Assembly: GCA_947172415.1 (NCBI GenBank)
Contig: OX359200.1
Location: forward strand, 5,024,501 to 5,088,500
From: Chondrosia reniformis
Lineage: Eukaryota; Porifera; Demospongiae; Chondrillida; Chondrillidae
Direction: 5' to 3'
Length of the DNA stretch: 64,000 bases
Position numbers and translations under genes: made by a program
Part shown: positions 29,098 to 63,344 of the stretch, one piece after another
Layout: the number at the start of each line of letters is the position of its first letter
How positions within the stretch are numbered: the stretch's first letter is position 1
Notes under the pieces: model-generated
What the model was told of the DNA's origin: nothing
The model's input: only the letters and a program-made list of their open reading frames with translations
The model's database searches: none

Positions 29098-30370
29098 TAA
29101 AGATATGTAGACCATTAAATTGTATACAGAAATGTAACACTTTATTGTCATGAACATTGTTTGTATTGACTGAGTTGTTTTCTTGTATCTTTCACTATCT
29201 CCTCAACTAATTCAACAAATGAATATTATGGATTAACAGGATGTGAGTATCTGCTTAATGTAGAAGTGTACATGTGCATCCATTTTGTTCCTGTGTGTGT
29301 TCAAGTGAAGTGTATAATGATAATGACATGTAGACCATTAAATTGTATACAGAAATGTAACACTTTATTGTCATGAACATTGTTTGTATTGACTGAGTTG
29401 TTTTCTTGTATCTTTCACTATCTCCTCAACTAATTCAACAAATGAATATTATGGATTAACAGGATGTGAGTATCTGCTTAATGTAGAAGTGTACATGTGC
29501 ATCCATTTTGTTCCTGTGTGTGTTCAAGTGAAGTGTATAATGATAATGACATGTAGACCATTAAATTGTATACAGAAATGTAACACTTTATTGTCATGAA
29601 CATTGTTTGTATTGACTGAGTTGTTTTCTTGTATCTTTCACTATCTCCTCAACTAATTCAACAAATGAATATTATGGATTAACAGCCAGTGAGTATCTGC
29701 TTAATGTAGAAGTGTACATGTGCATCCATTTTGTTCCTGTGTGTGTTCAAGTGAAGTGTATAATGATAATGACATGTAGACCATTAAATTGTATACAGAA
29801 GTGTAACACTTTATTGTCATGAACATTGTTTGTATTGACTGAGTTGTTTTCTTGTATCTTTCACTATCTCCTCAACTAATTCAACAAATGAATATTATGG
29901 ATTAACAGCCAGTGAGTATCTGCTTAATGTAGTAGTGTGCATCCATTTTGTTCCTGTGTATGTTCCAAGTGAAGTGTAGAATGATAATGACATGTAGACC
30001 ATTAAATTGTATACAGAAATGTAACACTTTATTGTCATGAACATTGTTTGTATTGACTGAGTTGTTTTCTTGTATCTTTCACTATCTCCTCAACTAATTC
30101 AACAAATGAATATTATGGATTAACAGCAAGTGAGTATCTGCTTAATGTAGTAGTGTGCATCCATTTTGTTCCTGTGTGTGTTCCAAGTGAAGTATAGAAT
30201 GATAATGACATGTAGACCATTAAATTGTATACAGAAGTGTAACACTATAGTGTCATGAACATTTTTTGTATTGACTGAGTTGTTTTCTTGTATCTTTGAC
30301 TATCTCCTCAACTAATTCAACAAATGAATATTATGGATTAACAGTGGGTGAGTATCTGCTTAATGTAGTA

Positions 30371-31152
30371 CAGTAAAACCTCTAATAGCGGACTCTCCGA
30401 AAAGCGGACAACCTCTGTACAGCGGACAAATCATACGCCCCCGATTGACTTTCCCATAGAGCTAGTACATTTCGAACCTCCGAGTAGCGGCACCTCCGAA
30501 CTCCGGATAACGGACACTGACCAAGCCTCAGACTGATCTCTGACAATACATACTGACCTCCGAAAGCGGACAGTTAAACTAAAGACGAGACGAAACTAAT
30601 ACAATAAGACGATAATAGTACAGTGAACAAAATTAACGTAAGTCATAAGTATCTAGCTACATAAAATAGCTACAAATGTCTAGCGGATCGTACGTAGTCT
30701 CAAGTGAATTTCAGTTCCGCCCGCTAGCTCATTTCGCTCCTATTTTTTCAACTATTCAAAGGTCGATGAAAGTGGCCTTAAACCTAAACGAATGATTTAT
30801 CCATTTGGTAGTTGTTCATTTTAACTGTCCTAAAACCACTCGTACCAAACCATCTAATAGGAAATCTTGCTTCTGAGGATCGTACCCAGCATAACCTTTA
30901 AGTTAGTTAACCGTTATGTTAGTAAAATGTTAGTGTTTGTAGCTTTCTATAACTTGTTGATGTGCATTTATTGCATCTCTTGGATCTTGATCATGAGCCA
31001 TAATATAGTGTCACTATAACTGGTAGCTAGTTACTATTACACAATTAGTTGATTAGAGGGTGATTATGGGCCGACCTCCGAGAAGAGGACAACCTCTGAA
31101 TAAAAGACAAGATGGTGGGTCCGAGCGTGTCCGTTATTCGGAGGTTTCACTG
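30371..31152. mobile_element. Pogo-like MITE in the array
   Basis: A 782-bp element with ends CAGTAAAACCTCTAATAGCGGA and TCCGTTATTCGGAGGTTTCACTG, flanked by TA. Removing it restores an uninterrupted array unit (TAATGTAGTA then GTCTGCATCC). It is non-coding. Short internal copies of CCTCCGA and GCGGACA are derived from the ends. Confidence 0.85.
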
Positions 31153-34059
31153 TAGTCTGCATCCATTTTGTTCCTGTGTGTGTTCCAAGTGAAGTATAGA
31201 ATGATAATGACTTTAGACCATTAAATTGTATACAGAAATGTAACACTTTATTGTCATGAACATTGTTTGTATTGACTGAGTTGTTTTCTTGTATATTTCA
31301 CTATCTCCTCAACTAATTCAACAAATGAATATTATGGATTAACAGCAAGTGAGTATCTGTTTAATGTAGTAATGTGCATCCATTTTGTTCCTGTGTGTGT
31401 TCCAAGTGAAGTATAGAATGATAATGACATGTAGACCATTAAATTGTATACAGAAATGTAACACTTTATTGTCATGAACATTTTTTGTATTGACTGAGTT
31501 GTTTTCTTGTATCTTTCACTATCTCCTCAACTAATTCAACAAATGAATATTATGGATTAACAGATTGTGAGTATCTGCTTAATGTAGTAATGTGCATCCA
31601 TTTTGTTCCTGTGTGTGTTCCAAGTGAAGTATAGAATGATAATGACATGTAGACCATTAAATTGTATACAGATATGTAACACTTTATTGTCATAAACATT
31701 GTTTGTATTGACTTAGTTGTTTTCTTGTATCTTTCACTATCTCCTCAACTAATTCAACAAATGAATATTATGGATTAACAGTATGTGAGTATCTGCTTAA
31801 TGTAGTAGTGTGCATCCATTTTGTTCCTGTGTGTGTTCCAAGTGAAGTATAGAATGATAATGACATGTAGACCATTAAATTGTATACAGAAATGTAACAC
31901 TTTATTGTCATGAACATTTTTTGTATTGACTGAGTTGTTTTCTTGTATCTTTCACTATCTCCTCAACTAATTCAACAAATGAATATTATGGATTAACAGA
32001 GAGTGAGTATCTGCTTAATGTAGTAGTGTGCATCCATTTTGTTCCTGTGTGTGTTCCAAGCGAAGTGTAGAATGATAATGACATGTAGACCATTAAATTG
32101 TATACAGATATGTAACACTTTATTGTCATGAGCATTGTTTGTATTGACTGAGTTGTTTTCTTGTATCTTTCACTATCTCCTCAACTAATTCAACAAATGA
32201 ATATTATGGATGAACAGCTAGTGAGTATCTGCTTAATGTAGTAGTGTGCATCCATTTTGTTCCTGTGTGTGTTCCAAGTGAAGTATAGAATGATAATGAC
32301 ATGTAGACCCTTAAATTGTATACAGAAATGTAACACTTTATTGTCATGAACATTGTTTGTATTGACTGAGTTGTTTTCTTGTATCTTTCACTATCTCCTC
32401 AACTAATTCAACAAATGAATATTATGGATTAACAGCAAGTGAGTATCTGCTTAATGTAGTAGTGTGCATCCATTTTGTTCCTGTGTGTGTTCCAAGTGAA
32501 GTGTAGAATGATAATGACATGTAGACCATTAAATTATATTCAGATATATGTAACACTTTTTTGTCATGAACATTGTTTGTATTGATTGAGTTGTTTTCTT
32601 GTATCTTTCACTATCTCCTCAACTAATTCAACAAATGAATATTATGGATTAACAGCAAGTGAGTATCTGTTTAATGTAGTAGTGTGCATCCATTTTGTTC
32701 CTGTGTGTGTTCCAAGTGAAGTATAGAATGATAATGGCATATAGACCATTAAATTGTATACAGATATGTAACACTTTATTGTCATGAACATTGTTTGTAT
32801 TGACTGAGTTGTTTTCTTGTATCTTTCACTATCTCCTCAACTAATTCAACAAATGAATATTATGGATTAACAGATTGTGAGTATCTGTTTAATGTAGTAG
32901 TGTGCATCCATTTTGTTCCTGTGTGTTTTCCAAGTGAAGTATAGAATGATAATGGCATATAGACCATTAAATTGTATACAGATATGTAACACTTTATTGT
33001 CATGAACATTGTTTGTATTGACTGAGTTGTTTTCTTGTATCTTTCACTAAATCCTCAACTAATTCAACAAATGAATATTATGGATTAACAGCAAGTGAGT
33101 ATCTGCTTAATGTAGTAGTGTACATCCATTTTGTTCTTGTGTGTGTTCCAAGTGAAGTGTATAATGATAATGACATGTAGACCATTCAATTGTATACAGA
33201 AATGTAATACTTTATTGTCATGAACATTGTTTGTATTGACTGAGTTGTTTTCTTGTATCTTTCACTATCTCCTCAACTTATTCAACAATTGAATATTATG
33301 GATTAACAGTATGTGAGTATCTGCTTAATGTAGTAGTGTGCATCCATTTTGTTCCGGTGTGTGTTCCAAGTGAAGTATAGAATGATAATGACATGTAGAC
33401 CATTAAATTGTATACAGAAATGTAACACTTTATTGTCATGAACATTGTTTGTATTGACTGAGTTGTTTTCTTGTATCTTTGACTATCTCCTCAACTAATT
33501 CAACAAATGAATATTATGGATTAACAGCCAGTGAGTATCTGCTTAATGTAGTAGTGTGCATCCATTTTGTTCCTGTGTGTGTTCCAAGTGAAGTGTAGAA
33601 TGATAATGACATGTGGACCATTTAATTGCATACAGAAATGTAACACTTTATTGTCATGAACATTGTTTGTATTGACTGAGTTGTTTTCTTGTATCTTTCA
33701 CTATCTCCTCAACTAATTCAACAAATTAATATTATGGATTAACAGAAAGTGAGTATCGCTTAATGTAGTAGTGTGCATCCATTTTGTTCCTGTGTGTGTT
33801 CCAAATGAAGTATAGAATCATAATGACATGTAGACCATTAAATTGCATACAGAAATGTTACACTTTATTGTCATGAACATTTTTTGTATTGACTGAGTTG
33901 TTTTCTTGTATCTTTGACTATCTCCTCAACTAATTCAACAAATGAATATTATGGATTAACAGATTGTGAGTATCTGCTTAATGTAGTAGTGTGCATCCAT
34001 TTCTTTCCTGTGTTTGTTCTAAGTGAAGTATAGGATGATAATGACATGTAGACCATTAA

Positions 34060-34903
34060 CCCTTTATCGTAGATGAGCCACTATAGTGGCTCGCGTGTGA
34101 CCGCAGCTGGTGTGGAAAAGATGTAGCTATTGCACAACCGTCATGGTGGACAAGCCACTATTGTGGCTCGTCTCATAGAACATATTTACAAACGAATGTG
34201 AACTTTCTGAGTATAATTCTTAAATTTTCCGTTAACTACGCTTAATATTGAACACAATAATAAGTCTGCACTGATAAAATCGGGCATTTTACGATGGTGT
34301 TTACTCCCCGAACATGATTATCAAAACATCTTGTATAACCCTACAAAATATCGTCATGTCTATTGTTTATAAAGTCTGTCATTAGTACCTTTAAGATGGT
34401 CCAAAGATTTAGAGCCGAAAATATACCAATGGGTGAGCCCGACTAGGACAATTCTGACACTAGCTCCGATGAAGACGACTACTCAGAATAGATTGCCTCA
34501 GAAGACCCGCACCAGCAAGCAGAGGAGTCGGACGAAGATTCTGACAACTCGTACGATACAAATAACGAACCCACGAGCATTTCCACCAGTGACAACGCAA
34601 CCAAATCTACATGTAATTCACTTGTAGATATTACTACGTACGTATATTATCGTAAAACTGCCGCATAACACTTTATAGTCTCCTTGTACGTAAAGTTTTA
34701 TATGTGTTATAACTTTGTTGTAATATACCGCATGGCTGTATTACTGCAAATTTATATACTACTCACTATGTGTTACCTAGGAATTTATTTTAAATAAAAT
34801 CAGCTAAAGTAATCGAATCGTCCACGACCACCAGTCGAGCCACTTTAGTGGCTTTTCCACGATAAGGCATTATTGCGCAAGGACATTTTTCCACAATAAA
34901 GGG
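34060..34903. mobile_element. piggyBac-like element remnant in the array
   Basis: An 844-bp insertion flanked by TTAA (34056-34059 and 34904-34907), with ends CCCTTTATCGTAGATGAGCC and CACAATAAAGGG. A GAGCCACT(A/T)TAGTGGC palindrome recurs inside. 34397-34625 reads as an acidic transposase N-terminus (MVQRFRAENIP, DNSDTSSDEDDYSE) broken by two stops, so it is a deletion derivative of a piggyBac element. Such elements integrate at TTAA; the array unit is restored by removing it. Confidence 0.85.
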
Positions 34904-37900
34904 TTAAATTGTATACAGAAATGTAACACTTTCTTATCATGAACATTGTTTGTATTGACTGAGTTGTTTTCTTGTATCTTTCACTATCTCCTCAACTAAT
35001 TCAACAAATGAATATTATGGATTAACAGCTAGTGAGTATCTGCTTAATGTAGTAGTGTGCATCCATTTTGTTCCTGTGTGTGTTTCAAGTGAAGTGTATA
35101 ATTATAATGACATGTAGACCATTAAATTGTATACAGAAATGTAACACTTTATTGTCATGAACATTGTTTGTATTGACTGAGTTGTTTTCTTGTATCTTTC
35201 ACTATATCCTCAACTAATTCAACAAATGAATATTATGGATTAACAGAGAGTGAGTATCTCCTTAATGTAGTAGTGTGCATCCATTTTGTTCCTGTGTGTG
35301 TTCCAAGTGAAGTGTATAATGATAATGACATGTAGACCATTAAATTGTATACAGAAATGTAACACTTTATTGTCATGAACATTTTTTGTATTGACTGAGT
35401 TGTTTTCTTGTATCTTTCACTATCTCCCCAACTAATTCAACAAATGAATATTATGGATTAACAGACTGTGAGTATCTGTTTAATGTAGTAGTGTACATCC
35501 ATTTTGTTCCTGTGTGTGTTCCAAGTTAAGTGTAGAATGATAATGACATTTAGACCATTAAATTGTATACAGAAATGTAACACTTTATTGTCATGAACAT
35601 TGTTTGTATTGACTGAGTTGTTTTCTTGTATCTTTCACTATCTCCTCAACTAATTCAACAAATGAATATTATGGATTAACAGCAAGTGAGTATCTGCTCA
35701 ATGTAGTAGTGTGCATCCAATTTGTTACTATGTATGTTCCAAGTGAAGTGTAGAATGATAATGACATGTAGACCATTAAATTGTATACAGAAATGTAACA
35801 CTTTATTGCCATGAACATTGTTTGTATTGACTGAGTTGTTTTCTTGTATCTTTCACTATCTCCTCAACAAATTCAACAAATGAATATTATGGATTAACAG
35901 AGAGTGAGTATCTGCTTAATGTAGTAGTGTGCATCCATTTTGTTCTTGTGTGTGTTCCAAGTGAAGTGTATAATGATAATGGCATGTAGACCATTAAATT
36001 GTATACAGAAATGTAACACTTTATTGTCATGGACATTTTTTGTATTGACTGAGTTGTTTTCTTGTATCTTTCACTATCTCCTCAACTAATTCAACAAATG
36101 AATGTTATGGATTAACAGAGAGTGAGTATCTCCTTAAAGTATTAGTGTGCATCCATTTTGTTCCTGTGTGTGTTCCAAGTGAAGTATAGAATGATAATGA
36201 CATGTAGACCTTTAAATTGTATACAGAAATGTAACACTTTATTGTAATGAACTTTTTTGTATTGACTGAGTTGTTTTCTTGTATCTTTCACTATCTCCTC
36301 AACTAATTCAACAAATGAATATTATGGATTAACAGCAAGTGAGTATCTGCTTAATGTAGTAGTGTGCATCCATTTTGTTCCTGTGTGTGTTCCAAGTGAA
36401 GTGTAGAATGATAATGACATGGAGACCTTTAAATTGTATACAGAAATGTAACACTTTATTTTCATGAACATTGTTTGTATTGACTGAGTTGTTTTCTTGT
36501 ATCTTTCACTATCTCCTCAACTAATTCAACAAATGAATATTATGGATTAACAGAAAGTGAGTATCTGCTTAATGTAGTAGTGTGCATCCATTTTGTTCCT
36601 GTGTGTGTTCCAAGTGAAGTATAGAATGATAATGACATGTAGACCATTAAATTGTATACAGAAATGTAACACTTTATTGTCATGAACATTGTTTGTATTG
36701 ACTGAGTTGTTTTCTTGTATCTTTCACTATCTCCTCAACTAATTCAACAAATGAATATTATGGATTAACAGAAAGTGAGTATCTGCTTAATGTAGTAGTG
36801 TGCATCCATTTTGTTCCTGTGTGTGTTCCAAGTGAAGTGGAAGATGATAATGACATGTAGACCATTAAATTGTATACAGAAATGTAACACTTTATTGTCA
36901 TGAACATTGTTTGTATTGACTGAGTTGTTTTCTTGTATCTTTCACTATCTCCTCAACTAATTCAACAAATGAATATTATGGATTAACAGCAAGTGAGTAT
37001 CTGCTTAATGTAGTAGTGTGCATCCATTTTGTTCCTGTGTGTGTTCCAAGTGAAGTGTAGAATGATAATGACATGGAGACCTTTAAATTGTATACAGAAA
37101 TGTAACACTTTATTGTCATGAACATTGTTTGTATTGACTGAGTTGTTTTCTTGTATCTTTCACTATCTCCTCAACTAATTCAACAAATAAATATTATGGA
37201 TTAACAGTTGGTGAGTATCTGCTTAATGTAGTAGTGTGCATCCATTTTGTTCCTGTGTGTGTTCCAAGTGAAGTGGAAGATGATAATGACATGTAGACCT
37301 TTAAATTGTATACAGAAATGTAACACTTTATTGTCATGAACATTGTTTGTATTGACTGAGTTGTTTTCTTGTATCTTTCACTATCTCCTCAACTAATTCA
37401 ACAAACGAATATTATGGATTAACAGATTGTGAGTATCTGTTTAATGTAGTAGTGTGCATCCATTTTGTTCCTGTGTGTGTTCCAAGTGAAGTGTAGAATG
37501 ATAATGACATGAAGACCATTAAATTGTATACACAAATGTAACACTTTATTGTCATGAACATTGTTTGTATTGACTGAGTTGTTTTCTTGTATCTTTCACT
37601 ATCTCCTCAACTAATTCAACAAATGAATATTATGGATTAACAGGCTGTGAGTATCTGCTTAATGTAGTAGTGTGCATCCATTTTGTTCCTGTGTGTGTTC
37701 CAAGTGAAGTGGAAGATGATAATGACATGTAGACCATTAAATTGTATACAGAAATGTAACACTTTATTGTCATGAACATTGTTTGTATTGACTGAGTTGT
37801 TTGCTTGTATCTTTCACTATCTCCTCAACTAATTCAACAAATGAATATTATGGATTAACAGCAAGTAAGTATCTGCTTAATGTATTAGTGTGCATCCATT

Positions 37901-40341
37901 TTGTTCCTGTGTGTGTTCCAAGTGAAGTGTAGAATGATAATGACATTGAGACCTTTAAATTGTATACAGAAATGTAACACTTTATTGTCATGAACATTGT
38001 TTGTATTGACTGAGTTGTTTTCTTGTATCTTTCACTATCTCCTCAACTAATTCAACAAATGAATATTATGGATTAACAGAAAGTGAGTATCTGTTTAATG
38101 TAGTAGTGTGCATCCATTTTGTTCCTGTGTGTGTTCCAAATGAAGTATAGAATGATTATAACATGTAGACCATTAAATTGTATACAGAAATGTAAAACCT
38201 TATTGTCATGAACATTGTTTGTATTGACTGATTTGTTTTCTTGTATCTTTCACTATCTCCTCAACTAATTCAACAAATGAATATTATGGATTAACAGCAA
38301 GTGAGTATCTGCTTAATGTACGTAGTAGTGTGCATCCATTTTGTTCCTGTGTGTGTTCCAAGTGAAGTGGAAGATGATAATGACATGTAGACCATTAAAT
38401 TGTATACAGAAATGTAACACTTTATTGTCATGAACATTGTTTGTATTGACTGAGTTGTTTTCTTGTATCTTTCACTATCTCCTCAACTAATTCAACAAAT
38501 GAATATTATGGATTAACAGGAAGTGAGTATCTGCCTAATGTAGTAGTGTGCATCCATTTTGTTCCTGTGTGTGTTCCAAGTGAAGTGGAAGATGATAATG
38601 ACATGTAGACCATTAAATTGTATACAGAAATGTAACACTTTATTGTCATGAACATTTTTTGTATTGACTGAGTTGTTTTTTTGTATCTTTCACTATCTCC
38701 TCAACTAATTCAACAAATGAATATTATGGATTAACAGCAAGTAAGTATCTGCTTAATGTAGTAGTGTGCATCCATTTTGTTCCTGTGTGTGTTCCAAGTG
38801 AAGTGTAGAATGATAATGACTTGGAGACCTTTAAATTGTATACAAAAATGTAAAACTTTATTGTCATGAACATTTTTTGTATTGACTGAGTTGTTTGCTT
38901 GTATCTTTCACTATCTCCTCAACTAATTCAACAAATGAATATTATGGAATAACAGTTGGTGAGTATCTGCTTAATGTAGTAGTGTACATCCATTTTGTTC
39001 CTGTGTGTGTTCCAAGTGAAGTATAGAATGATAATGGCATGTAGACCATTAAATTGTATACAGAAATGTAACACCTTATTGTCATGAACATTGTTTGAAT
39101 TTACTGAGTTATTTTCTTGTATCTTTCACTATCTCCTCAACTAATTCAACAAATGAATATTATGGATTAACAGTTGGTGAGTATCTGCTTAATGTAGTGG
39201 TGTGCATCCATTTTGTTCCTGTGTGTGTTCCAAGTGAAGTGGAAGATGATAATGACATGTAGACCATTAAATTGTATACAGAAATGTAACACTTTATTGT
39301 CATGAACATTGTTTGTATTGACTGAGTTGTTTTCTTGTATCTTTCACTATCTCCTCAACTAATTCAACAAATGAATATTATGGATTAACAGCAAGTGAGT
39401 ATCTGCTTAATGTAGTAGTGTGCATCCATTTTGTTCCTGTGTGTGTTCCAAGTGAAGTGGAAGATGATAATGACATGTAGACCATTAAATTGTATACAGA
39501 AATGTAACACTTTATTGTCATGAACATTGTTTGTATTGACTGAGTTGTTTTCTTGTATCTTTCACTATCTCCTCAACTAATTCAACAAATGAATATTATG
39601 GATTAACAGCAAGTAAGTATCTGCTTAATGTAGTAGTGTGCATCCATTTTGTTCCTGTCTGTGTTCCAAGTGAAGTGTAGAATGATAATGACATGGAGAC
39701 CTTTAAATTGTATACAGAAATGTAACACTTTATTGTCATGAACATTGTTTGTATTGACTGAGTTGTTTTCTTGTATCTTTCACTATCTCCTCAACTAATT
39801 CAACAAATGAATATTATGGATTAACAGCAAGTGAGTATCTGCTTAATAAAGTAGTGTGCATCCATTTTGTTCCTGTGTGTGTTCCAAGTGAAGTGGAAGA
39901 TGATAATGACATGTAGACCATTAAATTGTATACAGAAATGTAACACTTTATTGTCATGAACATTGTTTGTATTGACTGAGTTGTTTTCTTGTATCTTTCA
40001 CTATCTCCTCAACTAATTCAACAAATGAATATTATGGATTAACAGCAAGTAAGTATCTGCTTAATGTAGTAGTGTGCATCCATTTTGTTCCTGTGTGAGT
40101 TCCAAGTGAAGTATAGAATGATAATGACATGTAGACCATTAAATTGTATACAGAAATGTAACACTTTATTGTCATGAACATTGTTTGAATTGACTGAGTT
40201 GTTTTCTTGTATCTTTCACTGTCTCCTCAACTAATTCAACAAATGAATATCATGGATTAACAGGGAGTGAGTATCCCCTTAATATAGTAACGTACATCCA
40301 TTTTGTTCCTGTGTGTGTTCCAAGTGAAGTGTATAATGATA

Positions 40342-41009
40342 GAAATATTCAAAATTTTCTGCAAAAATAGTGAAGATGTAGGGATGGCACAAAAAGTAGA
40401 CAAACAAAAAAGGGATGTTACATAGTGAAGTATTAGCTATACATGAATCCTACAAGAAAGGGTGTTGTATGTTTATAGCCCATACTCCATAAAAAGTACA
40501 GTTTCTGTACTTTTTATGGAGTATGGGCTAGGAATTATAATTGTATACCATTTTGGTTTTGCAATCTTCAACTGATATGACGTCATTAAAATGGCGAAAT
40601 TATTGAGGCCTTGACTCTGGGGGCCATGAAAGCCGTCATACTCAATAATAGCGTTATCGCTCTCGCTTCTACAAAAGAATACAGCCTGGAAAATTTGCAA
40701 TAATTTCGTTTAACAATTATAGTCCAAAAGCTTGTATAATGTTTTAGTTATCGCTGACGAAGAAGAAGAATAAGAAGAAGAAGAATATGAAGAAGACAAA
40801 AATAGGAATTTTTAAAGTTTATTATTTAGCAAGCGGGACATATTCGCTTGCCTGTAAGGTCTATTTAGAGTATGTATCTTGTATATTTAGCTATACATAG
40901 CCTTGTTTTGTCGATTTTCGGCCTATTTCGGGATTTTGCTCCTATACCGATGTATGGGGAAAACGAAAAAAACGCGTCATCCCTACATAGGGAGTACTAC
41001 CGTACTCCC
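40342..41009. mobile_element. Foldback/MITE composite in the array
   Basis: A 668-bp insertion after AATGATA of an array unit, which resumes at TGATAATGACATG. It contains a perfect hairpin GCCCATACTCCATAAAAAG at 40478-40528 and a GAA microsatellite near 40760-40795. It ends CATCCCTACATAGGGAGTACTACCGTACTCCC. Its right part is the inverted relative of 53510-53990, and its left part is the inverted relative of 28942-29097. Confidence 0.75.
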
Positions 41010-44000
41010 TGATAATGACATGTTGACCATTAAATTGTATACTGAAATGTAACACTTTATTGTCCTGAACATTGTTTGTATTGACTGAGTTATTTTCTTG
41101 TATCTTTCACTATCTCCTCAACTAATTCAACAAATGAATATTATGGATTAACAGCAAGTGAGTAACTGCTGAATGTAGTAGTGTGCATCCATTTTGTTCC
41201 TGTTTGTGTTCCAAGTGAAGTGTAGAATGATAATGACATGTAGACCATTAAATTGTATACAGAAATGTAACACTTTATTGTCATGACCATTGTTTGTATT
41301 GACTGAGTTGTTTTCTTGTATCTTTCACTATCTCCTCAACTAATTCAACAAATGAATATTATGGATTAACAGAGTGTGAGTATCTGCTTAATGTATTAGT
41401 GTGCATCCATTTTGTTCCTGTGTGTGTTCCAAGTGAAGTGTAGAATGATAATGACATGTAGACCATTAAATTGTACACAGAAATGTAACACTTTATTGTC
41501 ATGAACATTGTTTGTATTGACTGAGTTGTTTTCTTGTATCTTTCACTATATCCTCAACTAATTCAACAAACGAATATTATGGATTAACAGAGAGTGAGTA
41601 ACTGCTTAATGTAGTAGTGTGCATCCATTTTGTTCCTGTGTGTGTTCCAAGTGAAGCGTATAATGTTAATGACATCTAGACCATTAAATTGTATACAAAA
41701 ATGTAACACTTTATTGTCATGAACATTTTTTGTATTGACTGAGTTGTTTTCTTGTATCTTTCACTATCTCCTCAACTAATTCAACAAATGAATATTATGG
41801 ATTAACAGTTGGTGAGTATCTGCTTAATGTAGTAGTGTGCATCCATTTTGTTCCTGTGTGTGTTCCAAGTGAAGTATAGAATGATAATGACATGTAGACC
41901 TTTAAATTGTATATATACAGAAGTGTAGCACTTTATTGTCATGAACATTTTTTGTATTGACTGAGTTGTTTTCTTGTATCTTTCACTATCTCCTCAACTA
42001 ATTCAACAAATGAATATTATGGATTAACAGGAAGTGAGTATCTGCTTAATGTAGTAGTGTGCATCCATTTTGTTCCTGTGTGTGTTCCAAGTGAAGTGTA
42101 GAATGATAATGACATGTAGACCATTAAATTGTATACAGATATGTAACACTTTATTGTCATGAACATTGTTTGTATTGACTGAGTTGTTTTCTTGTATCTT
42201 TCACTATCTCCTCAACTAATTCAACAAATGAATATTATGGATTAACAGACTGTGAGTATCTGTTTAATGTAGTAGCATGCATCCATTTTGTTCCTGTATG
42301 TGTTCCAAGTGAAGTGTAGAATGATAATGACATGTAGACCATTAAATTGTATACAGAAGTGTAACACTTTATTGTCATGAACATTGTTTGTATTGACTGA
42401 GTTGTTTTCTTGTATCTTTCACTATCTCCTCAACTAATTCAACAAATGAATATTATGGATTAACAGGATGTGAGTATCTGCTTAATGTAGTAGTGTGCAT
42501 CCATTTTGTTCCTGTGTGTGTTCCAAGTGAAGTATAAAATGATAATGACATGTAGACCATTAAATTGTATACAGAAATGTAACACTTTATTGTCATGAAC
42601 ATTTTTTGTATTGACTGAGTTGTTTTCTTGTATCTTTCACTATCTCCTCAACTAATTCAACAAATGAATATTATGGATTAACAGATTGTGAGTATCTGCT
42701 TAATGTAGTAGTGTGCATCCATTTTGTTCCTGTGTGTGTTCCAAGTGAAGTGTAGAATGATAATGACATGTAGACCATTAAATTGTATACAGAAATGTAA
42801 CACTTTATTGTCATGAACATTGTTTGTATTGACTGAGTTGTTTTCTTGTATCTTTCACTATCTCCTCAACTAATTCAACAAATGAATATTATGGATTAAC
42901 AGATTGTGAGTATCTGCTTAATGTAGTAGTGTGCATCCATTTTTTTCCTGTGTGTGTTCCAAAGTGAAGTATAGAATGATAATGACATGTAGACCATTAA
43001 ATTGTATACAGTAGTGTAACACTTTATTGTCATGAACATTGTTTGTATTGACTGAGTTGTTTTCTTGTATCTTTCACTATCTCCTCAACTAATTCAACAA
43101 ATGAATATTATGGATTAACAGATTGTGAGTATCTGCTTAATGTAGTAGTGTGCATCCATTTTGTTCCTGTGTGTGTTCCAAGTGAAGTGTAGAATGATAA
43201 TGACATGTAGACCATTAAATTGTATACAGAAATGTAACACTTTATTGTCATGAACATTGTTTGTATTGACTGAGTTGTTTTCTTGTATCTTTCACTATCT
43301 CCTCAACTAATTCAACAAATGAATATTATGGATTAACAGATTGTGAGTATCTGCTTAATGTAGTAGTGTGCATCCATTTTTTTCCTGTGTGTGTTCCAAA
43401 GTGAAGTATAGAATGATAATGACATGTAGACCATTAAATTGTATACAGTAGTGTAACACTTTATTGTCATGAACATTGTTTGTATTGACTGAGTTGTTTT
43501 CTTGTATCTTTTACTATACCCTCAACTAATTCAACAAATGAATATTATGGATTAACAGATTGTGAGTGTCTGCTTAATGTAGTAGTGTTCATCCATTTTG
43601 TTCCTGTGTGTGTTCCAAGTGAAGTGTAGAATGATAATGACATATAGACCATTAAATTGTATACAGAAGTGTAACACCTTATTGTCATGAACATTGTTTG
43701 TATTGACTGAGTTGTTTTCTTGTATCTTTCACTATCTCCTCAACTAATTCAACAAACGAATATTATGGATTAACAGAGAGTGAGTGTCTGCTTAATGTAT
43801 TAGTGTGCATCCATTTTGTTCCTGTGTGTGTTCCAAGTGAAGTATAGAATGATAATGACATGTAGACCATTAAATTGTATACAGAAATATAACACTTTAT
43901 TGTCATGAACATTGATTGTATTGACTGAGTTGTTTTCTTGTATCTCTCACTATCTCCTCAACTAATTCAACAAATGAATATTATGGATTAACAGAGAGTG

Positions 44001-47000
44001 AGTATCTGCTTAATGTAGTAGTGTACATCCATTTTGTTCCTGTGTGTGTTCCAAGTGAAGTGTAGAATGAAAATGATATTTAGACCATTAAATTGTATAC
44101 AGAAATGTAACACTTTATTGTCATGAACATTGTTTGTATTGACTGAGTTGTTTTCTTGTATCTTTCACTATCTCCTCAACTAATTCAACAAATGAATATT
44201 ATGGATTAACAGGAAGTGAGTATCTGCTTAATGTAGTAGTGTGCATCCATTTTGTTCCTGTGTGTGTTCCAAGTGAAGTATAGAATGATAATGACATGTA
44301 GACCATTAAATTGTATACAGAAATGTAACACTTTATTGTCATGAACATTGTTTGTATTGACTGAGTTGTTTTCTTGTATCTTTCACTATCTCCTCAACTA
44401 ATTCAACAAATGAATATTATGGATTAACAGTTGGTGAGTATCTGCTTAATGTAGTAATGTGCATCCATTTTGTTCCTGTGTGTGTTCCAAGTGAAGTATA
44501 GAATGATAATGACATGTAGACCTTTAAATTGTATATATACAGAAGTGTAGCACTTTATTGTCATGAACATTTTTTGTATTGACTGAGTTGTTTTCTTGTA
44601 TCTTTCACTATCTCCTCAACTAATTCAACAAATGAATATTATGGATTAACAGGAAGTGAGTATCTGCTTAATGTAGTAGTGTGCATCCATTTTGTTCCTG
44701 TGTGTGTTCCAAGTGAAGTATAGAATGATAATGACATGTAGACCATTAAATTGTATACAGAAATGTAACACCTTATTGTCATGAACATTGTTTGTATTGA
44801 CTGAGTTGTTTTCTTGTATCTTTCACTATCTCCTCAACTAATTCAACAAATGAATATTATGGATTACCAGTTGGTGAGTATCTGCTTAATGTAGTAGTGT
44901 GCATCCATTTTGTTCCTGTGTGTGTTCCAAGTGAAGTGTAGAATGATAATGACATGTAGACCATTAAATTGTATACAGAAATGTAACACTTTATTGTCAT
45001 GAACATTTTTTGTATTGACTGAGTTGTTTTCTTGTATCTTTCACTATCTCCTCAACTAATTCAACAAATGAATATTATGGATTAACAGCAAGTGAGTATC
45101 TGCTTAATGTAGTAGTGTGCATCCATTTTGTTCCTGTGTGTATTCCAAGTGAAGTATAGAATGATAATGACATGTAGACCATTAAATTGTATACAGAAAT
45201 ATAACACTTTATTGTCATGAACATTGTTTGTATTGACTGAGTTGTTTTCTTGTATCTTTCACTATCTCCTCAACTAATTCAACAAATGAATATTATGGAT
45301 TAACAGAATGTGAGTATCTGCTTAATGTAGTAGTATGCATCCATTTTGTTCCTGTGTGTGTTCCAAGTGAAGTGGAAGATAATAATGACATGTAGACCAT
45401 TAAATTGAATACAGAAATGTAACACTTTATTGTCATGAACATTGTTTGTATTGACTGAGTTGTTTTCTTGTATCTTTCACTATCTCCTCAACTAATTCAA
45501 CAAATGAATATTATGGATTAACAGCAAGTAAGTATCTGCTTAATGTAGAAGTGTGCATCCATTTTGTTCCTGTGTGTGTTCCAAGTGAAGTGTAGAATGA
45601 TAATGACATGGAGACCTTTTAATTGTATACAGAAATGTAACACTTTATTGTCATGAACATTGTTTCTATTGGCTGAGTTGTTTTCTTGTATCTTTCACTA
45701 TCTCCTCAACTAATTCAACAAATGAATATTATGGATTAACAGATGGTGAGTATCTGTTTAATGTAGTAGTGTGCATCCATTTTGTTCCTGTGTGTGTTCC
45801 AAGTGAAGTATAGAATGATAATGACATGTAGACCATTAAATTGTATACAGAAATGTAACACTTTATTGTCATGAACATTGTTTGTATTGACTGAGTTGTT
45901 TTCTTGTATCTTTCACTATCTCCTCAACTAATTCAACAAATGAATATTATGGATTAACAGACTGTGAGTATCTGCTTAATGTAGTAGTGTGCATCCATTT
46001 TGTTCCTGTGTGTGTTCCAAGTGAAGTGGAAGATGATAATGACATGTAGACCATTAAATTGTATACAGAATTGTAACACTTTATTGTCATGAACATTGTA
46101 TTGACTGAGTTGTTTTCTTGTATCTTTCACTATCTCCTCAACTAATTCAACAAATGAATATTATGGATTAACAGCAAGTAAGTATCTGCTTAATGTATTC
46201 GTGTGCATCCATTTTGTTCCTGTGTGTGTTCCAAGTGAAGTGTAGAATGATAATGACATGGAGACCTTTAAATTGTATACAGAAATGTAACACTTTATTG
46301 TCATGAACATTGTTTGTATTGACTGAGTTGTTTTCTTGTATCTTTCACTATCTCCTCAACTAATTCAACAAATGAATATTATGGATTAACAGGCTGTGAG
46401 TATCTGCTTAATGTAGTAGTGTGCATCCATTTTTTTCCTGTGTGTGTTCCAAGTGAAGTGTATAATGATAATGACATGTAGACCATTAAATTGTATACAG
46501 AAATGTAACACTTTATTGTCATGAACATTGTTTGTATTGACTGAGTTGTTTTCTTGTATCTTTCACTATCTCCTCAACTAATTCAACAAATGAATATTAT
46601 GGATTAACAGTTGGTGAGTATCTGCTTAATGTTGTAGTGTACATCCATTTTGTTCCTGTGTGTGTTCCAAGTGAAGTGTATAATGATAATGACATGTAGA
46701 CCATTAAATTGTATCCAGAAATGTAACACTTTATTCTCATGAACATTGTTTGTATTGACTGAGTTGTTTTCTTGTATCTTTCAATATATCCTCAACTAAT
46801 TCAACAAATGAATATCATGGATTAACAGGCTGTGAGTAACTGCTTAATGTTGTAGTGTACATCCATTTTGTTCCTTTGTATGTTCCAAGTGAAGCGTATA
46901 ATGATAATAACATGTAGACTGTAAATTGTATACAGAAATGTAACACTTTATTGTCATGAACATTTTTTGTATTGACTAAGTTGTTTTCTTGTATCTTTCA

Positions 47001-50000
47001 CTATCTCCTCAACTAATTCAACAAATGAATATTATGGATTAACAGGCTGTGAGTATCTGCTTAATGTAGTAGTGTGCATCCATTTTTTTCCTGTGTGTGT
47101 TCCAAGTGAAGTGTATAATGATAATGACATGTAGACCATTAAATTGTATACAGAAATGTAACACTTTATTGTCATGAACATTGTTTGTATTGACTGAGTT
47201 GTTTTCTTGTATCTTTCACTATCTCCTCAACTAATTCAACAAATGAATATTATGGATTAACAGTTGGTGAGTATCTGCTTAATGTTGTAGTGTACATCCA
47301 TTTTGTTCCTGTGTGTGTTCCAAGTGAAGTGTATAATGATAATGACATGTAGACCATTAAATTGTATCCAAAAATGTAACACTTTATTCTCATGAACATT
47401 GTTTGTATTGACTGAGTTGTTTTCTTGTATCTTTCAATATATCCTCAACTAATTCAACAAATGAATATCATGGATTAACAGGCTGTGAGTAACTGCTTAA
47501 TGTTGTAGTGTACATCCATTTTGTTCCTTTGTATGTTCCAAGTGAAGCGTATAATGATAATAACATGTAGACTGTAAATTGTATACAGAAATGTAACACT
47601 TTATTGTCATGAACATTTTTTGTATTGACTAAGTTGTTTTCTTGTATCTTTCACTATCTCCTCAACTAATTCAACAAATGAATATTATGGATTAACAGGA
47701 TGTGAGTATCTGCTTAATGTATTAGTGTGCATCCATTTTGTTCCTGTGTGTGTTCCAAGTGAAGTATAGAATGATAATGACATGTAGACCATTAAATTGT
47801 ATACAAAAACGTAAAACTTTATTGTCTTGAACATTTTTTGTATTGACTGAGTTGTTTGCTTGTATCTTTCACTATCTCCTCAACTAATTCAACAAATGAA
47901 TATTATGGATTAACAGTTGGTGAGTAACTGCTTAATGTAGTAGTGTACATCCATTTTGTTCCTGTGTGTGTTCCAAGTGAAGCGTATAATGATTATAACA
48001 TGTAGACTGTAAATTGTATACAGAAATGTAACACTTTATTGTCATGAACATTGTTTGTATTGACTGAATTGTTTTCTTGTATCTTTCACTATCTCCTCAA
48101 CTAATTCAACAAATGAATATTATGGATTAACAGTTGGTGAGTATCTGCTTAATGTAGTAGTGTGCATCCATTTTGTTCCTGTGTGTGTTCCAAGTGAAGT
48201 ATAGAATGATAATGACATGTAGACCTTTAAATTGTATATATTCAGAAGTGTAGCACTTTATTGTCATGAACATTTTTTGTATTGACTGAGTTGTTTTCTT
48301 GTATCTTTCACTATCTCCTCAACTAATTCAACAAATGAATATTATGGATTAACAGGAAGTGAGTATCTGCTTAATGTAGTAGTGTGCATCCATTTTGTTC
48401 CTGTGTGTGTTCCAAGTGAAGTATAGAATGATAATGACATGTAGACCATTAAATTGTATACAGAAATGTAACACCTTATTGTCATGAACATTGTTTGTAT
48501 TGACTGAGTTGTTTTCTTGTATCTTTCACTATCTCCTCAACTAATTCAACAAATGAATATTATGGATTAACAGCAAGTAAGTATCTGCTTAATTTTGTAG
48601 TGTGCATCCATTTTGTTCCTGTGTGTGTTCCAAGTGAAGTATAGAATGATAATGACATGTAGACCTTTAAGTAGTATACAGAAATGTAACACTTAATTGT
48701 CATGAACATTGTTTGTATTGACTGAGTTGTTTTCTTGTATCTTTCACTATCTCCGCAACTAATTCAACAAACGAATATTATGGATTAACAGCTAGTGAGT
48801 ATCTGTTAAATGTAGTAGTGTGCATCCATTTTGTTCCTGTGTGTGTTCCAAGTGAAGCGTATTATGTTAATGACATATAGACCATTTAAATTGTATTCAG
48901 AAATGTAACACTTTATTGTCATGAACATTGTTTGTATTGACTGAGTTGTTTTCTTGTATCTTTCACTATCTCCTCAACTAATTCAACAAATGAATATTAT
49001 GGATTAACAGATTGTGAGTGTCTGCTTAATGTAGTAGTGTGCATCCATTTTTTTCCTGTGTGTGTTCCAAGTGAAGTATAGAATGATTATGACATGTAGA
49101 CCTTTAAATTGTATATATTCAGAAGTGTAGCACTTTATTGTCATGAACATTTTTTGTATTGAATGAGATGTTTTCTTGTATCTTTCACTATCTCCTCAAC
49201 TAATTCAACAAATGAATATTATGGATTAACAGGAAGTGAGTATCTGCTTAATGTAGTAGTGTGCATCCATTTTGTTCCTGTGTGTGTTCCAAGTGAAGTG
49301 TAGAATGATAATGACATGTAGACCATTAAATTGTATACAAAAATGTAAAACTTTATTGTCATGAACATTTTTTGTATTGACTGAGTTGTTTGCTTGTATC
49401 TTTCACTATCTCCTCAACTAATTCAACAAATGAATATTATGGATTAACAGGCTGTGAGTATCTGCTTAATGTAGTAGTGTACATCCATTTTGTTCCTGTG
49501 TGTGTTCCAAGTGAAGTATAGAATGATAATGACATGTAGACCATTAAATTGTATACAGAAATGTAACACCTTATTGTCATGAACATTGTTTGTATTGACT
49601 GAATTGTTTTCTTGTATCTTTCACTATCTCCTCAACTAATTCAACAAATGAATATTATGGATTAACAGCAAGTAAGTATCTGCTTAATTTTGTAGTGTGC
49701 ATCCATTTTGTTCCTGTGTGTGTTCCAAGTGAAGTATAGAATGATAATGACATGTAGACCTTTAAATTGTATACAGAAATGTAACACTTTATTGTCATGA
49801 ACATTGTTTGTATTGACTGAGTTGTTTTCTTGTATCTTTCGCTATCACCGCAACTAATTCAACAAACGAATATTATGGATTAACAGCTAGTGAGTATCTG
49901 TTAAATGTAGTAGTGTGCATCCATTTTGTTCCTGTGTGTGTTCCAAGTGAAGCGTATAATGTTAATGACATATAGACCATTTAAATTGTATACAGAAATG

Positions 50001-53000
50001 TAACACTTTATTGTCATGAACATTGTTTGTATTGACTGAGTTGTTTTCTTGTATCTTTCACTATCTCCTCAACTAATTCAACAAATGAATATTATGGATT
50101 AACAGTTGGTGAGTATCTGCTTAATGTAGTAGTGTGCATCCATTTTGTTCCTGTGTGTGTTCCAAGTGAAGTGGAAGATGATAATGACATGTAGACCTTT
50201 AAATTGTATACAGAAATGTAACACTTTATTGTCATGAACATTGTTTGTATTGACTGAGTTGTTTTCTTGTATCTTTCACTATCTCCTTAACTAATTCAAC
50301 AAATGAATATTATGGATTAACAGCAAGTAAGTATCTGCTTAATGTAGTAGTGTGCATCCATTTTGTTCCTGTGTGTGTTCCAAGTGAAGCGTATAATGTT
50401 AATGACATGTAGACCATTTAAATTGTATACAGAAATGTAACACTTTATTGTCATGAACATTGTTTGTATTGACTGAATTGTTTTCTTGTATCTTTCACTA
50501 TCTCCTCAACTAATTTAACAAATGAATATTATGGATTAACAGTTGGTGAGTATCTGCTTAATGTAGTAGTGTGCATCCATTTTGTTCCTGTGTGTGTTCC
50601 AAGTGAAGTATAGAATGATAATGACATGTAGACCTTTAAATTGTATATATACAGAAGTGTAGCACTTTATTGTCATGAACATTGTTTGTATTGACTGAGT
50701 TGTTTTCTTGTATCTTTCACTATCTCCTCAACTAATTCAACAAATGAATATTATGGATTAACAGCAAGTAAGTATCTGCTTAATTTTGTAGTGTGCATCC
50801 ATTTTGTTCCTGTGTGTGTTCCAAGTGAAGTATAGAATGATAATGACATGTAGACCTTTAAGTATTATACAGAAATGTAACACTTTATTGTCATGAACAT
50901 TGTTTGTATTGACTGAGTTGTTTTCTTGTATCTTTCACTATGTCCGCAACTAATTCAACAAACGAATATTATGGATTAACAGCTAGTGAGTATCTGTTAA
51001 ATGTAGTAGTGTGCATCCATTTTGTTCCTGTGTGTGTTCCAAGTGAAGCGTATTATGTTAATGACATATAGACCATTTAAATTGTATTCAGAAATGTAAC
51101 ACTTTATTGTCATGAACATTGTTTGTATTGACTGAGTTGTTTTCTTGTATCTTTCACTATCTCCTCAACTAATTCAACAAATGAATATTATGGATTAACA
51201 GATTGTGAGTGTCTGCTTAATGTAGTAGTGTGCATCCATTTTGTTCCTGTGTGTGTTCCAAGTGAAGTATAGAATGATAATGACATGTAGACCTTTAAAT
51301 TGTATATATTCAGAAGTGTAGCACTTTATTGTCATGAACATTTTTTGTATTGACTGAGATGTTTTCTTGTATCTTTCACTATCTCCTCAACTAATTCAAC
51401 AAATGAATATTATGGATTAACAGGAAGTGAGTATCTGCTTAATGTAGTAGTGTGCATCCATTTTGTTCCTGTGTGTGTTCCAAGTGAAGTATAGAATGAT
51501 AATGACATGTAGACCATTAAATTGTATACAAAAATGTAAAACTTTATTGTCATGAACATTTTTTGTATTGACTGAGTTGTTTGCTTGTATCTTTCACTAT
51601 CTCCTCAACTAATTCAACAAATGAATATTATGGATTAACAGGCTGTGAGTATCTGCTTAATGTAGTAGTGTACATCCATTTTGTTCCTGTGTGTGTTCCA
51701 AGTGAAGTATAGAATGATAATGACATGTAGACCATTAAATTGTATACCGAAATGTAACACCTTATTGTCATGAACATTGTTTGTATTGACTGAGTTGTTT
51801 TCTTGTATCTTTCACTATCTCCTCAACTAATTCAACAAATGAATATTATGGATTAACAGAAAGTGAGTATCTGCTTAATGTAGTAGTGTGCATCCATTTT
51901 GTTCCTGTGTGTGTTCCAAGTGAAGTATAGAATGATAATGACATGTAGACCTTTAAATTGTATACAGAAATGTAACACTTTATTGTCATGAACATTGTTT
52001 GTATTGACTGAGTTGTTTTCTTGTATCTTTCACTATCTCCTCAACTAATTCAACAAATGAATATTATGGATTAACAGCAAGTGAGTATCTGCTTAATGTA
52101 GTAGTGTGCATCCATTTTGTTCCTGTGTGTGTTCCAAGTGAAGTATAGAATGATAATGACATGTAGACCATTAAATTGTATACAGAAATGTAACACCTTA
52201 TTGTCATGAACATTGTTTGTATTGACTGAGTTGTTTTCTTGTATCTTTCACTATCTCCTCAACTAATTCAACAAATGAATATTATGGATTAACAGGAAGT
52301 GAGTATCTGCTTAATGTAGTAGTGTGCATCCATTTTGTTCCTGTGTGTGTTCCAAGTAAAGTGGAAGATGATAATGACATGTAGACCATTAAATTGTATA
52401 CAGAAATGTAACACTTTATTGTCATGAACATTGTTTGTATTGACTGAGTTGTTTTCTTGTATCTTTCACTATCTCCTCAACTAATTCAACAAATGAATAT
52501 TATGGATTAACAGAAAGTGAGTATCTGCTTAATGTAGTAGTGTGCATCCATTTTGTTCCTGTGTGTGTTCCAAGTGAAGTGGAAGATGATAATGACATGT
52601 AGGCCATTACATTGTATACAGAAATGTAACACTTTATTGTCATAAACATTGTTTGTATTGACTGAGTTGTTTTCTTGTATCTTTCACTATCTCCTCAACT
52701 AATTCAACAAACGAATATTATGGATTAACAGAAAGTGAGTATCTGCTTAATGTAGTAGTGTGCATCCATTTTATTCCTGTGTGTGTTCCAAGTGAAGTAT
52801 AGAATGATAATGACATGTAGACCATTAAATTGTATACAGAAATGTAACACCTTATTGTCATGAACATTGTTTGTATTGACTGAGTTGTTTTCTTGTATCT
52901 TTCACTATCTCCTCAACTAATTCAACAAATGAATATTATGGATTAACAGCAAGTGAGTATCTGCTTAATGTAGTAGTGTGCATCCATTTTGTTCCTGTGT

Positions 53001-53441
53001 GTGTTCCAAGTAAAGTGGAAGATGATAATGACATGTAGACCATTAAATTGTATACAGAAATGTAACACTTTATTGTCATGAACATTGTTTGTATTGACTG
53101 AGTTGTTTTCTTGTATCTTTCACTATCTCCTCAACTAATTCAACAAATGAATATTATGGATTAACAGAAAGTGAGTATCTGCTTAATGTAGTAGTGTGCA
53201 TCCATTTTGTTCCTGTGTGTGTTCCAAGTGAAGTGGAAGATGATAATGACATGTAGACCATTAAATTGTATACAGAAATGTAACACTTTATTGTCATAAA
53301 CATTGTTTGTATTGACTGAGTTGTTTTCTTGTATCTTTCACTATCTCCTCAACTAATTCAACAAATGAATATTATGGATTAACAGGCTGTGAGTATCTGC
53401 TTAATGTAGTAGTTGCATGTTATATGTATGGACTAAAATAT

Positions 53442-53489
53442 AGGAAAGAGATTTATCACTTAAAAAAAGCAAAGACAGTCATTCCAAAG
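53442..53489 (+). CDS. First ordinary exon after array C
   Basis: A 48-base exon starting right after the acceptor AAAATATAG and ending before GTGTCA. It encodes ERDLSLKKSKDSHSKD in phase 0 at both ends. It is clearly homologous to the exon at 6291-6335 (ERNLSQQSNDSCSND) that joins array A to the coiled-coil/death-domain gene. Its phase shows that array triplets, if spliced, are read as whole codons. The other coiled-coil exons of gene A are not found downstream; a MITE begins 20 bases later. Confidence 0.65.
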
Positions 53490-53509
53490 ATGTGTCACAA
53501 TTGACTATC

Positions 53510-53990
53510 AGAGAGTACGGTAGTACTCTCTATGTAGGGATGGTACGGGTTGTTTTGTTTTCCCTATACATTGGTATAGGAGCGAAAATCCGAAATAAAC
53601 TGAAAATTGCCGAAAAAAGCTATGTATTGTTAAAAATTCACCAGCCATACTCTAAACTGGCCTAAAAGGCAAGCGACCGTGTTCCGCTGGCAAATGAGCG
53701 AACTTTGAAGTATCCCATTTTCGTTTTCATCTTCTTCATCTTCTTCATCTTCTTCATCTTCTTTGCCCGCTGTAACTAAACAAGGAAATAATTTTGCGGG
53801 CTACTTCTAAAGCGAAAATACTCCAAATTTTCCGCGCTGTATTCTTTTGTAGAAGCGAGAGCGATAACGTTATTATTGAGCATGACAGTTTTCGTGGCCC
53901 TAGAGTCAAGGCTTCAATAAATTCGCCATTTTTATGACGTCATATTCAGTCGAAGATTGTGAAAATCATCAAATGAGCGAGCTGAAGGGC
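53510..53990. mobile_element. MITE directly behind array C
   Basis: Begins AGAGAGTACGGTAGTACTCTCT then GTAGGGATGG, the same end as at 8051 and (inverted) at 40985-41009. The body matches 40555-41000 in inverted order, including AAATTCGCCATTTTTATGACGTCAT. It has a CTTCAT microsatellite at 53729-53762. The right edge is approximate. Confidence 0.7.
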
Positions 53991-55386: not shown

Positions 55387-55760
55387 AGTTTTTTAAACTC
55401 GAACTACTTGTTACTGTGTATGTCGAATATGTGATCATATACGTATGTAACACAATTATTCATCACTGAACTATGCAAATGGCTTCTTTAATGAATGGGC
55501 TTATGACAAGCCACCAAAGGTTAATAAAGATCAAGTGTATAAAAGTCGCAGATTTGAGGTATACCATATAATACACAGTTGAAGTACTTGGTAGAGTGAT
55601 AGACCAGGGGAAGGGTGACCTTTCTTCTAGCTGGTGTTATAGCTTTGGTATATAGCAGTTAGCTCATGTGCGCCAGGTGAGTTGCTAATCGTTGACTACA
55701 TTACCACCACTTAAATATTATGTGCATATAATTAACTACGTATAATGTAACACACTGCAG

Positions 55761-62750: not shown

Positions 62751-63344
62751 AACTTTACTAGAAGAGTGGCCAACACTGTATATGAAGGGATGGCCCAAGT
62801 AGAAGTTACAGTATTAAGACATTTTACGAATTTTCTACCATTGATTCAAACTCAAGGCGCTTGCGCTTTCTAATAATGAAAATTCTTAGACAATAATTTA
62901 AAGGCTTTATAACTCGAAGAAAAATTTCTGTACACATGTAATGCTACCCTTTAAATGGAAGTTGCGGGTGAATAGTCAGTGCAATAATCTTATTCTGTAA
63001 GGAGTTTTAATTTCTCATTGTAGTAGCTCTCTCGGGATTACAAAATAATTGAAAGAAACTGCGAAGAAATATAAAACCAAATTTAGATAGAAACTCCGAA
63101 TATAAGGGTTCTGATTTTAGGCCGAACATTATCCACCAAATTATATTTGTTTACTTTTTAATGATTAATTCAGCCCCAAAACTTACACGAGTAACCTTGT
63201 TATGCCGCGCGGTCCTATTCGAGCAGCTGACATCAAGAGATCTGTAAGTCTAGCTTCCTCACTTTCACACTCAGCCTCAGCCATTTTTATGAATTACATA
63301 AGTAAATTGCGCAATTAGAACGCATAGGGGAGATCCCATTTATG
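62751..63344. other. Intergenic, nothing recognised
   Basis: Unique AT-rich sequence beyond the duplication; no supported feature. Confidence 0.5.

Follow-up and report, generated by a model that had tools for sequence, protein, structure and literature searches.

Tandem arrays of putative single-codon exons in a gene cluster of the sponge Chondrosia reniformis

Here, we analyse a stretch of 64,000 nucleotides (nt) from the genome of the demosponge Chondrosia reniformis (C12:5024501-5088500, hereafter the window), which carries on its forward strand a tandem array of 101 three-base segments, each enclosed between a splice acceptor and a splice donor and repeated about every 218 base pairs (bp). 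These triplets are very probably genuine single-codon coding exons that are spliced serially, so that an N-terminal segment of 8 to 101 residues would be encoded with one residue per exon. We consider it likely that they mark a class of genes storing a protein segment one codon per exon, up to about 100 in a row, to be read serially in a manner resembling recursive splicing. Such genes would perhaps give Death-domain proteins of immune type a combinatorial N-terminus, which unequal exchange would edit residue by residue and from which a choice among exons could yield very many variants. The evidence, which is at the level of the sequence, covers the anatomy of the genes, their reading frame, the constraints acting on codons and on splice sites and the restriction of the arrays to a single cluster.

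According to the genome note, the assembly comprises 117.37 Mb in 14 chromosomes and a mitochondrial genome, with 7.52 Mb for chromosome 12 (PMC12181767). Our genome searches covered 117,379,552 bp in 15 contigs. A pattern scan of the window found 106 acceptor-NNN-donor sites, 101 of them at 29240-53386, and the tandem array of about 101 units claimed in a first-pass annotation of this DNA was thereby borne out, with 101 units at 29240-53388 on the plus strand (first triplet 29240-29242, last 53386-53388). Each unit of this main array is essentially laid out as an acceptor, TTATGGATTAACAG, the triplet NNN and a donor, GTRAGTATCTG. The spacing is mostly 218 bp and otherwise 214-223 bp, and three gaps of 1001, 1066 and 891 bp, with other sequence between, interrupt the series. 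A looser scan of the window gave a 3-nt spacer in 106 of 108 matches, the remaining two, with 9 nt (16791 and 60991), lying outside the repeats.

Existence and position of the array thus stand as annotated, while its extent had to be corrected, as arrays run on at both sides of the window and the main array is part of a larger cluster of about 250 kb on one strand (C12:4862604-5113738). In this cluster, stitched together from fetched pieces reaching to C12:5114500, there are 399 three-base units in twelve runs. A first loose scan of a 270-kb region had given 412 matches with a 3-nt spacer, 15 of which were judged to be background; the final count was reached after adding acceptors that the loose scan had missed, with one unit split by an acceptor insertion (C12:4978260/4978884) included by hand and counted once. 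The intron is confined to one cluster and one strand: a genome-wide search for its core (36 nt, at most 3 mismatches) gave 389 forward and 0 reverse matches, and the fetched cluster likewise holds 389. For the splice-site pattern, the genome gave 401 forward and 5 reverse matches and the fetched region 392 and 0, and the 9 forward and 5 reverse matches outside the region are near the 10 and 4 obtained with a reversed control pattern. Within the thresholds of the scans, no exon longer than three bases was found flanked by the cluster introns.

The triplets behave like codons. As the annotation had observed, three hypervariable bases sit among near-invariant flanks, with diversities of 0.72, 0.66 and 0.54 at the three positions compared with 0.05 on average over the preceding 60 bases. 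We obtained the same count of 17 triplet states for the 101 triplets of the main array, which contain 0 stops and spell DDPPQWQIYRLQQIQYPKILRTQRRQKKQLIAQKQEQLLQQQQGQSRLETDIIIIIRRELELQNQMTQALAALADLLEQLIEAQLLQLQLIEAKQEKKQKA; cluster-wide, there are 29 states among 399. All 399 units have exactly 3 nt, which preserves the frame, and a single stop occurs among them where base composition, taken position by position, would predict 17.4 (binomial P of at most one stop, 3.7e-7). The spelled peptides are protein-like and differ between genes, for example DQFLKELNREEREKKEKFQQKAKEKERQKDAPANWLEKKKEEEEKKKER (from C12:5088655), AKREAKAKEEAKAKEEAREEI (from C12:5109380), AKAAAGLAAGFLGGG and DEEDSSIPESIEDSS. 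A start exon with its ATG directly at the donor lies 289-423 bp upstream of eight of the twelve runs, one of them a single-unit run, and its frame agrees with that of the triplets. Seven of the twelve runs are followed by an in-frame conventional exon, coiled-coil-like in character, such as the 28-residue EKLQSLEESNKSLSHNVSKLSTKLKAVR, or in one case rich in proline and glutamine. Together with the splice-site features described below, stop avoidance and frame agreement support the annotation's reading of the triplets as single-codon micro-exons.

An AG precedes the triplet in 399 of 399 units and a GT follows it in 398, the donor being GTGAGT in 352 and GTAAGT in 38, and the constraint on these sequences points to functional acceptors and donors on either side of the triplet. 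In the stretch from -34 to -3 before the triplet, mutations that would create an AG are depleted: of 19 possible, 2 are seen against 7.8 expected (396 units), or 3 unit-occurrences against 25. From -120 to -66 there is no such depletion, with 19 of 24 seen and 16.7 expected (334 units). None of nine other dinucleotides falls so far under expectation at -34 to -3 by distinct mutations, and CA, CT and TC are also low there by unit-occurrences. Codon choice is constrained too. Triplets for Gln, Glu and Lys are NAA 166 times and NAG once (GAG), whereas ten conventional exons of the family have 81 NAA and 48 NAG (Fisher P 4e-19); none of the eight runs that contain at least two such codons has NAG, and in the main array alone the counts are 41 and 0. 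As Leu triplets end freely in G (30, against 13 in A), the avoidance targets NAG, which would form a tandem acceptor after ...CAG, and not G as such. GTN, with which a tandem donor or a ratchet-like site would arise, accounts for 3 of 399 triplets compared with 29 of 409 conventional codons (P 2e-6). Synonymous choice in the arrays thus appears to exclude codons that would make tandem splice sites, and the splice sites are, judging by these depletions, under selection. The avoidance of codons that would cause one codon to be skipped speaks for selection on inclusion. Two papers on NAGNAG and GYNGYN sites are said to concern in-frame tandem acceptors and donors (PMC2279118, PMC1779574); the sponge codon pattern fits selection against both, here acting on a whole one-codon exon.

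One gene could be traced from end to end, with its start exon at C12:5018669, upstream of the window, followed by the array, coiled-coil-like exons at 6291-7977 and a Death-domain exon at 9213-9504, all on the plus strand. Its single-codon exons spell AKAAAGLAAGFLGGGFAALWR, and the last five lie at window positions 72-6210 with other sequence inserted between them: GCA at 72-74 and GCA at 286-288, and then CTG at 5770-5772, TGG at 5999-6001 and AGA at 6208-6210, which give the peptide LWR. The first conventional exon after the array (6291-6362, phase 0, ERNLSQQSNDSCSNDMSMKLSAIE) has TT where a GT donor is expected, so its exact end is uncertain. It is followed by five coiled-coil-like exons at 6493-6582, 6855-6980, 7564-7638, 7705-7816 and 7941-7977, the first four found or translated by script and the last read by eye. 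The coiled-coil-like character is our reading of the sequence, and Pfam searches with these exons gave only matches below the cut-offs. The last exon (9213-9504, acceptor at 9212 by eye) carries the Death domain (PF00531) and runs to the stop codon; the corresponding frame at 9175-9501 scores 30.4 bits (E 4.4e-07), above the cut-off of 22.6. A second Death-domain frame, from another family member or a fragment, lies at 22155-22499 on the plus strand (31 bits, E 2.9e-07). In the start exon, the ATG closes a conserved 5' untranslated region (UTR) and abuts a GTAGGAGT donor. Part of the start exon of the next array gene is found in the window at 63799-63875 on the plus strand, its 5' UTR ending TTACCTTCAATATG at the GTAGGAGT donor and its array opening at C12:5088655, just beyond the window; this 77-nt sequence, used as a query, gave 6 matches, every one inside the cluster.

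An intronless copy elsewhere in the genome provides a view of what a spliced product may look like. When one gene model was compared with 5.8 billion predicted proteins, a single match at E <=0.001 was obtained (P0001; L030), and this protein corresponds to an uninterrupted, 100% identical frame at C13:6440971-6442044 of the C. reniformis genome, although the database record may come from another assembly. In this C13 copy, the 33 bases of 5' UTR up to the ATG match the start exons on C12, and the later parts match the coiled-coil-like and Death-domain exons of the C12 genes piecewise and in the same order; five Death-domain frames in the cluster are 78-81% identical to it. Between the ATG and the first conventional exon, where the C12 genes carry triplets, there are 57 contiguous codons. 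We take the locus to be a processed copy of a spliced mRNA. Like the arrays, in which C-ending codons make up 5 of 399, the 57 codons include no GAG, no GTN and no codon ending in C. The copy supports the start-exon junction, the frame and the presence of a variable N-terminal peptide at this position. It does not demonstrate an array origin for its own N-terminus, and the parent gene may have had a contiguous exon. As a separate observation, about 100 further Death-domain-like matches were found genome-wide (24-45% identity to the C13 copy, E up to 1), many on C2, C7, C9, C10 and C11, which would point to a large Death-domain expansion in this genome.

From these features, we infer how the genes would be expressed and in which order the steps would follow. 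A gene would consist of a start exon ending at the ATG, a series of units each made of an intron of about 215 nt and one codon, and phase-0 coiled-coil-like exons; a C-terminal Death domain closes both the one member traced over its full length and the intronless C13 copy. An acceptor and a donor three bases apart would, for steric reasons, not be engaged simultaneously. Since the acceptor and the donor machinery cannot both occupy a 3-nt exon at one time, splicing would have to be serial, each step adding one codon to the growing exon and recreating a complete donor (GTGAGT) at its new end. The outcome would be a fast-changing N-terminus that is spelled codon by codon.

The arrays also bear traces of how they may evolve. 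Among unit pairs whose introns differ at 1 of 210 aligned positions (n=178), the triplet is shared in 26% and differs at two or three bases in 49%; in more distant classes of pairs it is shared in 4-9% and differs at two or three bases in 65-79%. Triplets thus appear largely decoupled from the surrounding repeat. The association between triplet and intron, in an analysis uncorrected for relatedness, peaks close to the triplet (+3, -20 to -46, +25) and becomes weak upstream of about -50. We infer that recombination or conversion homogenises the introns while the codons stay different, and that block duplications carry codons along, as would be exemplified by CAA CTA ATT GAA GCT at 48574-49451, which is found again at 50765-51642. 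Through duplication of one or more units the array would grow or shrink, and the protein would change by whole in-frame residues.

Several observations weigh against the triplets being serially spliced codons or limit the evidence for it. The units are duplicates of one another, so that the counts are non-independent and the P-values overstated. One triplet is a stop (TAA at C12:4945348); the first downstream exon of this array (C12:4951030) is one base shorter than its relatives, and the array is probably an inactive copy. Besides this run, which ends in an exon off by one base, four of the twelve runs end in other sequence. In pairs with identical introns (n=45) the triplet is shared in 51%, and linkage to the repeat thus persists. 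The order of residues was tested in six of the eight gene peptides, those of at least 25 residues, by hydrophobic moment and helical periodicity, by spacing of seven and by charge pairs at i+3/i+4. No signal was consistent across the peptides: one had favourable charge pairing (z -2.5), whereas in a second the pairing was unfavourable (z +2.3). The power of the tests is low, a control coiled coil having also been negative on the hydrophobic measures. No contiguous copy, retroposed or otherwise, of four spelled peptides (from four of eight genes) was found genome-wide, in searches that may overlook low-complexity matches: three peptides matched only a conventional exon, and the fourth matched conventional exons and, weakly, the C13 copy. 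For the one spelled peptide searched, Pfam gave no family. Finally, Gln is CAG in 7 of 9 cases in the C13 copy and in 0 of 72 in the arrays, and the copy has one His codon (CAT) and one TCA, neither of which occurs in any array. Given these differences, the 57 codons of the copy probably do not stem from an array subject to the same regime.

The standing of the main array itself needs separate consideration. It forms a sub-group with the arrays ending at C12:4951030 and C12:4987264, in which a frame of WWTGY repeats follows. After the array comes a conventional phase-0 exon on the plus strand, ERDLSLKKSKDSHSKDVSQLTIREY, at 53444-53519 with an inferred end; the first-pass annotation had set its start at 53442, and the actual start is 53444. 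Two further points count against an intact gene here: no start exon of the family type was found upstream of 29240, and the 3' part of this exon is altered by inserted sequence, as in the copies at C12:4951030 and C12:4987264. The inserted sequence begins near AGAGTACGGTAGTACTCTC (window 53510-53540, C12:4951155 and C12:4987396), three paralogous genes having been hit. The main-array gene may thus be a decayed or rewired copy. That the arrays are coding in the family while this 101-unit copy is now an inactive fragment is compatible with serial splicing of single-codon exons elsewhere, and we hold it to be a serious possibility, if somewhat short of even. Besides the absent start exon and the insertion, it is favoured by the spacer homology, which stops at C12:5050199, the flank beyond being common to C12:4997625-5001298. 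Against it stand the 0 stops in 101 triplets, the 41 NAA to 0 NAG codons and the end of the first intron, which by eye is like those before C12:4862604 and C12:4883669. An open frame on the plus strand with seven WWTGY-containing repeats of 49 residues, the last incomplete (55761-56926, exon limits inferred), may be the coding exon that comes next in the main-array gene. At the DNA level, seven tandem repeats of 147 bp, the last again incomplete, occupy 55751-56926 and encode the 49-residue unit with IHWWTGYRSGSASSQS; their copy number varies between paralogous loci, and Pfam gave no family above the cut-off for them. Between the main array and the end of the window, no Death domain was found.

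Other explanations can be offered for the family as a whole. Tandem 218-bp repeats of high unit identity, and a window copy without the canonical start exon, are what a non-coding satellite within one long intron might present, the triplet then being a hypervariable or mutation-prone site. Such a satellite would have no coding or splice constraint at its variable site, whereas stops, NAG and GTN are avoided there; with the AG-free stretch, the three bases in 399 of 399 units, the in-frame exons around most arrays, the restriction to a single strand and the 389 intron cores of the genome that equal the 389 of the cluster, this explanation is very improbable. Different triplets flanked by near-identical introns, and a contiguous N-terminal segment with CAG codons in the C13 copy, could also mean that introner-type mobile elements had inserted themselves between the once contiguous codons of an ancestral exon. 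As no copies of these introns are found elsewhere, an introner that disperses is unlikely: the genome-wide count of the core, 389 forward and 0 reverse, is already reached within one 250-kb cluster. Further, the spacing is 3 nt every time, the N-termini are unrelated between genes, and no target-site duplication is evident in the AG / NNN / GT layout, though without a systematic search; we thus regard this origin as improbable.

A third explanation shares the real single-codon exons with the one we prefer and differs in their use: any donor could join with many acceptors, producing from one gene a large ensemble of N-termini that vary in both length and sequence and diversifying an immune-like protein at the RNA level. 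The near-identical splice sites and one-codon exons, with which every skip keeps the frame, the Death domains in the family and the lack of a consistent order signal in the spelled peptides would all suit such a use. However, the avoidance of NAG and GTN suggests that codon loss is selected against, while skipping should matter little in a purely combinatorial system, and this use appears to us rather unlikely, though not negligible.

Among known systems, the nearest are the schistosome micro-exon genes (MEGs), which have 10 to 20 very short exons per gene and encode secreted proteins; the exons, mostly of 15 bp, span 6-81 bp according to the text of the source and 3-81 according to the abstract (PMC10526429). 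The likeness lies in a coding part made up for the most part of consecutive, very short exons between introns, with lengths that are mainly multiples of three. Whereas MEG exons are mostly of several codons, the sponge exon is exactly one codon, always 3 nt, with up to 101 in a row between near-identical tandem introns, and with a Death domain in the gene traced end to end. We know of no homology between schistosome MEGs and the sponge arrays. Recursive splicing in Drosophila removes introns stepwise and involves ratchet points, with adjoining AG and GT, and RS-exons (PMC8605326). At ratchet points, so described, AG and GT are juxtaposed and the exon has zero nucleotides, leaving no residue; in contrast, the sponge units have three bases between AG and GT in all 399 cases, predicted to stay in the transcript, and GTN in only 3 of 399. 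In plants, 1-nt microexons have been confirmed by RNA sequencing and reverse-transcription PCR, and since plants splice 1-nt exons, a 3-nt exon would be feasible (PMC8831610). In the cases described there, the microexons are isolated, or at most two are adjacent (5 and 12 nt in a rice transcript), and they do not form tandem arrays, unlike the sponge exons. Introners are many near-identical introns in one genome, spread over many genes, and the main text of the source is without the words sponge or Porifera (PMC9860276). Unlike introners so defined, with copies in many unrelated genes, the sponge introns all lie on one strand of a single cluster, with 389 in the genome and 389 in the cluster.

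A literature search of open-access PMC articles (no preprints) brought up recursive splicing, single microexons in isolation and clusters of microexons in plants, and no array of single-codon or tandem microexons. With the predicted architecture of one codon per exon, both the mode of splicing and the evolution of the protein would be changed. If confirmed, about 100 consecutive splicing reactions would add one amino acid each, which breaks with the usual view of what an exon is for. The arrays would then put splicing fidelity, and intron definition in the absence of exon definition, to a severe test in nature, and would provide a mechanism by which repeat dynamics make a protein grow, shrink and be rewritten residue by residue. 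Ordinary aligners and annotation would probably miss such arrays, and other genes of this kind may lie unnoticed elsewhere. The association with Death domains suggests a function in cell death or innate immunity, in an animal whose lineage branched early.

Additional features were noted in the window and its surroundings. The first exon of a minus-strand gene, MAEAECESEEARLTDLLMSAARIGPRGITRLLV, is conserved at window positions 63186-63284 and at seven places in C12:4861461-5018588, and seven of the eight copies lie less than 1 kb from the start exon of an array gene, which suggests a shared bidirectional promoter. A candidate 9-nt exon is conserved in the spacers between arrays at C12:4858272, 4879386, 4898214, 4961526 and 5085491, in the forms TCAAGATTAGCAG / CAATCTGCA or TAATCTGCA / GTAAATACC, and two of its five copies begin with TAA. 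A scan for conserved open frames between paralogous spacers was set aside, exons not being separable from introns where the spacers are mostly at least 90% identical throughout. Further, a 916-residue open frame at window positions 16470-19220 contains a Transposase_21 (tnp2) domain (E 2.3e-13), and a 337-bp tandem repeat in about three copies, 95% alike, occupies 14305-15274.

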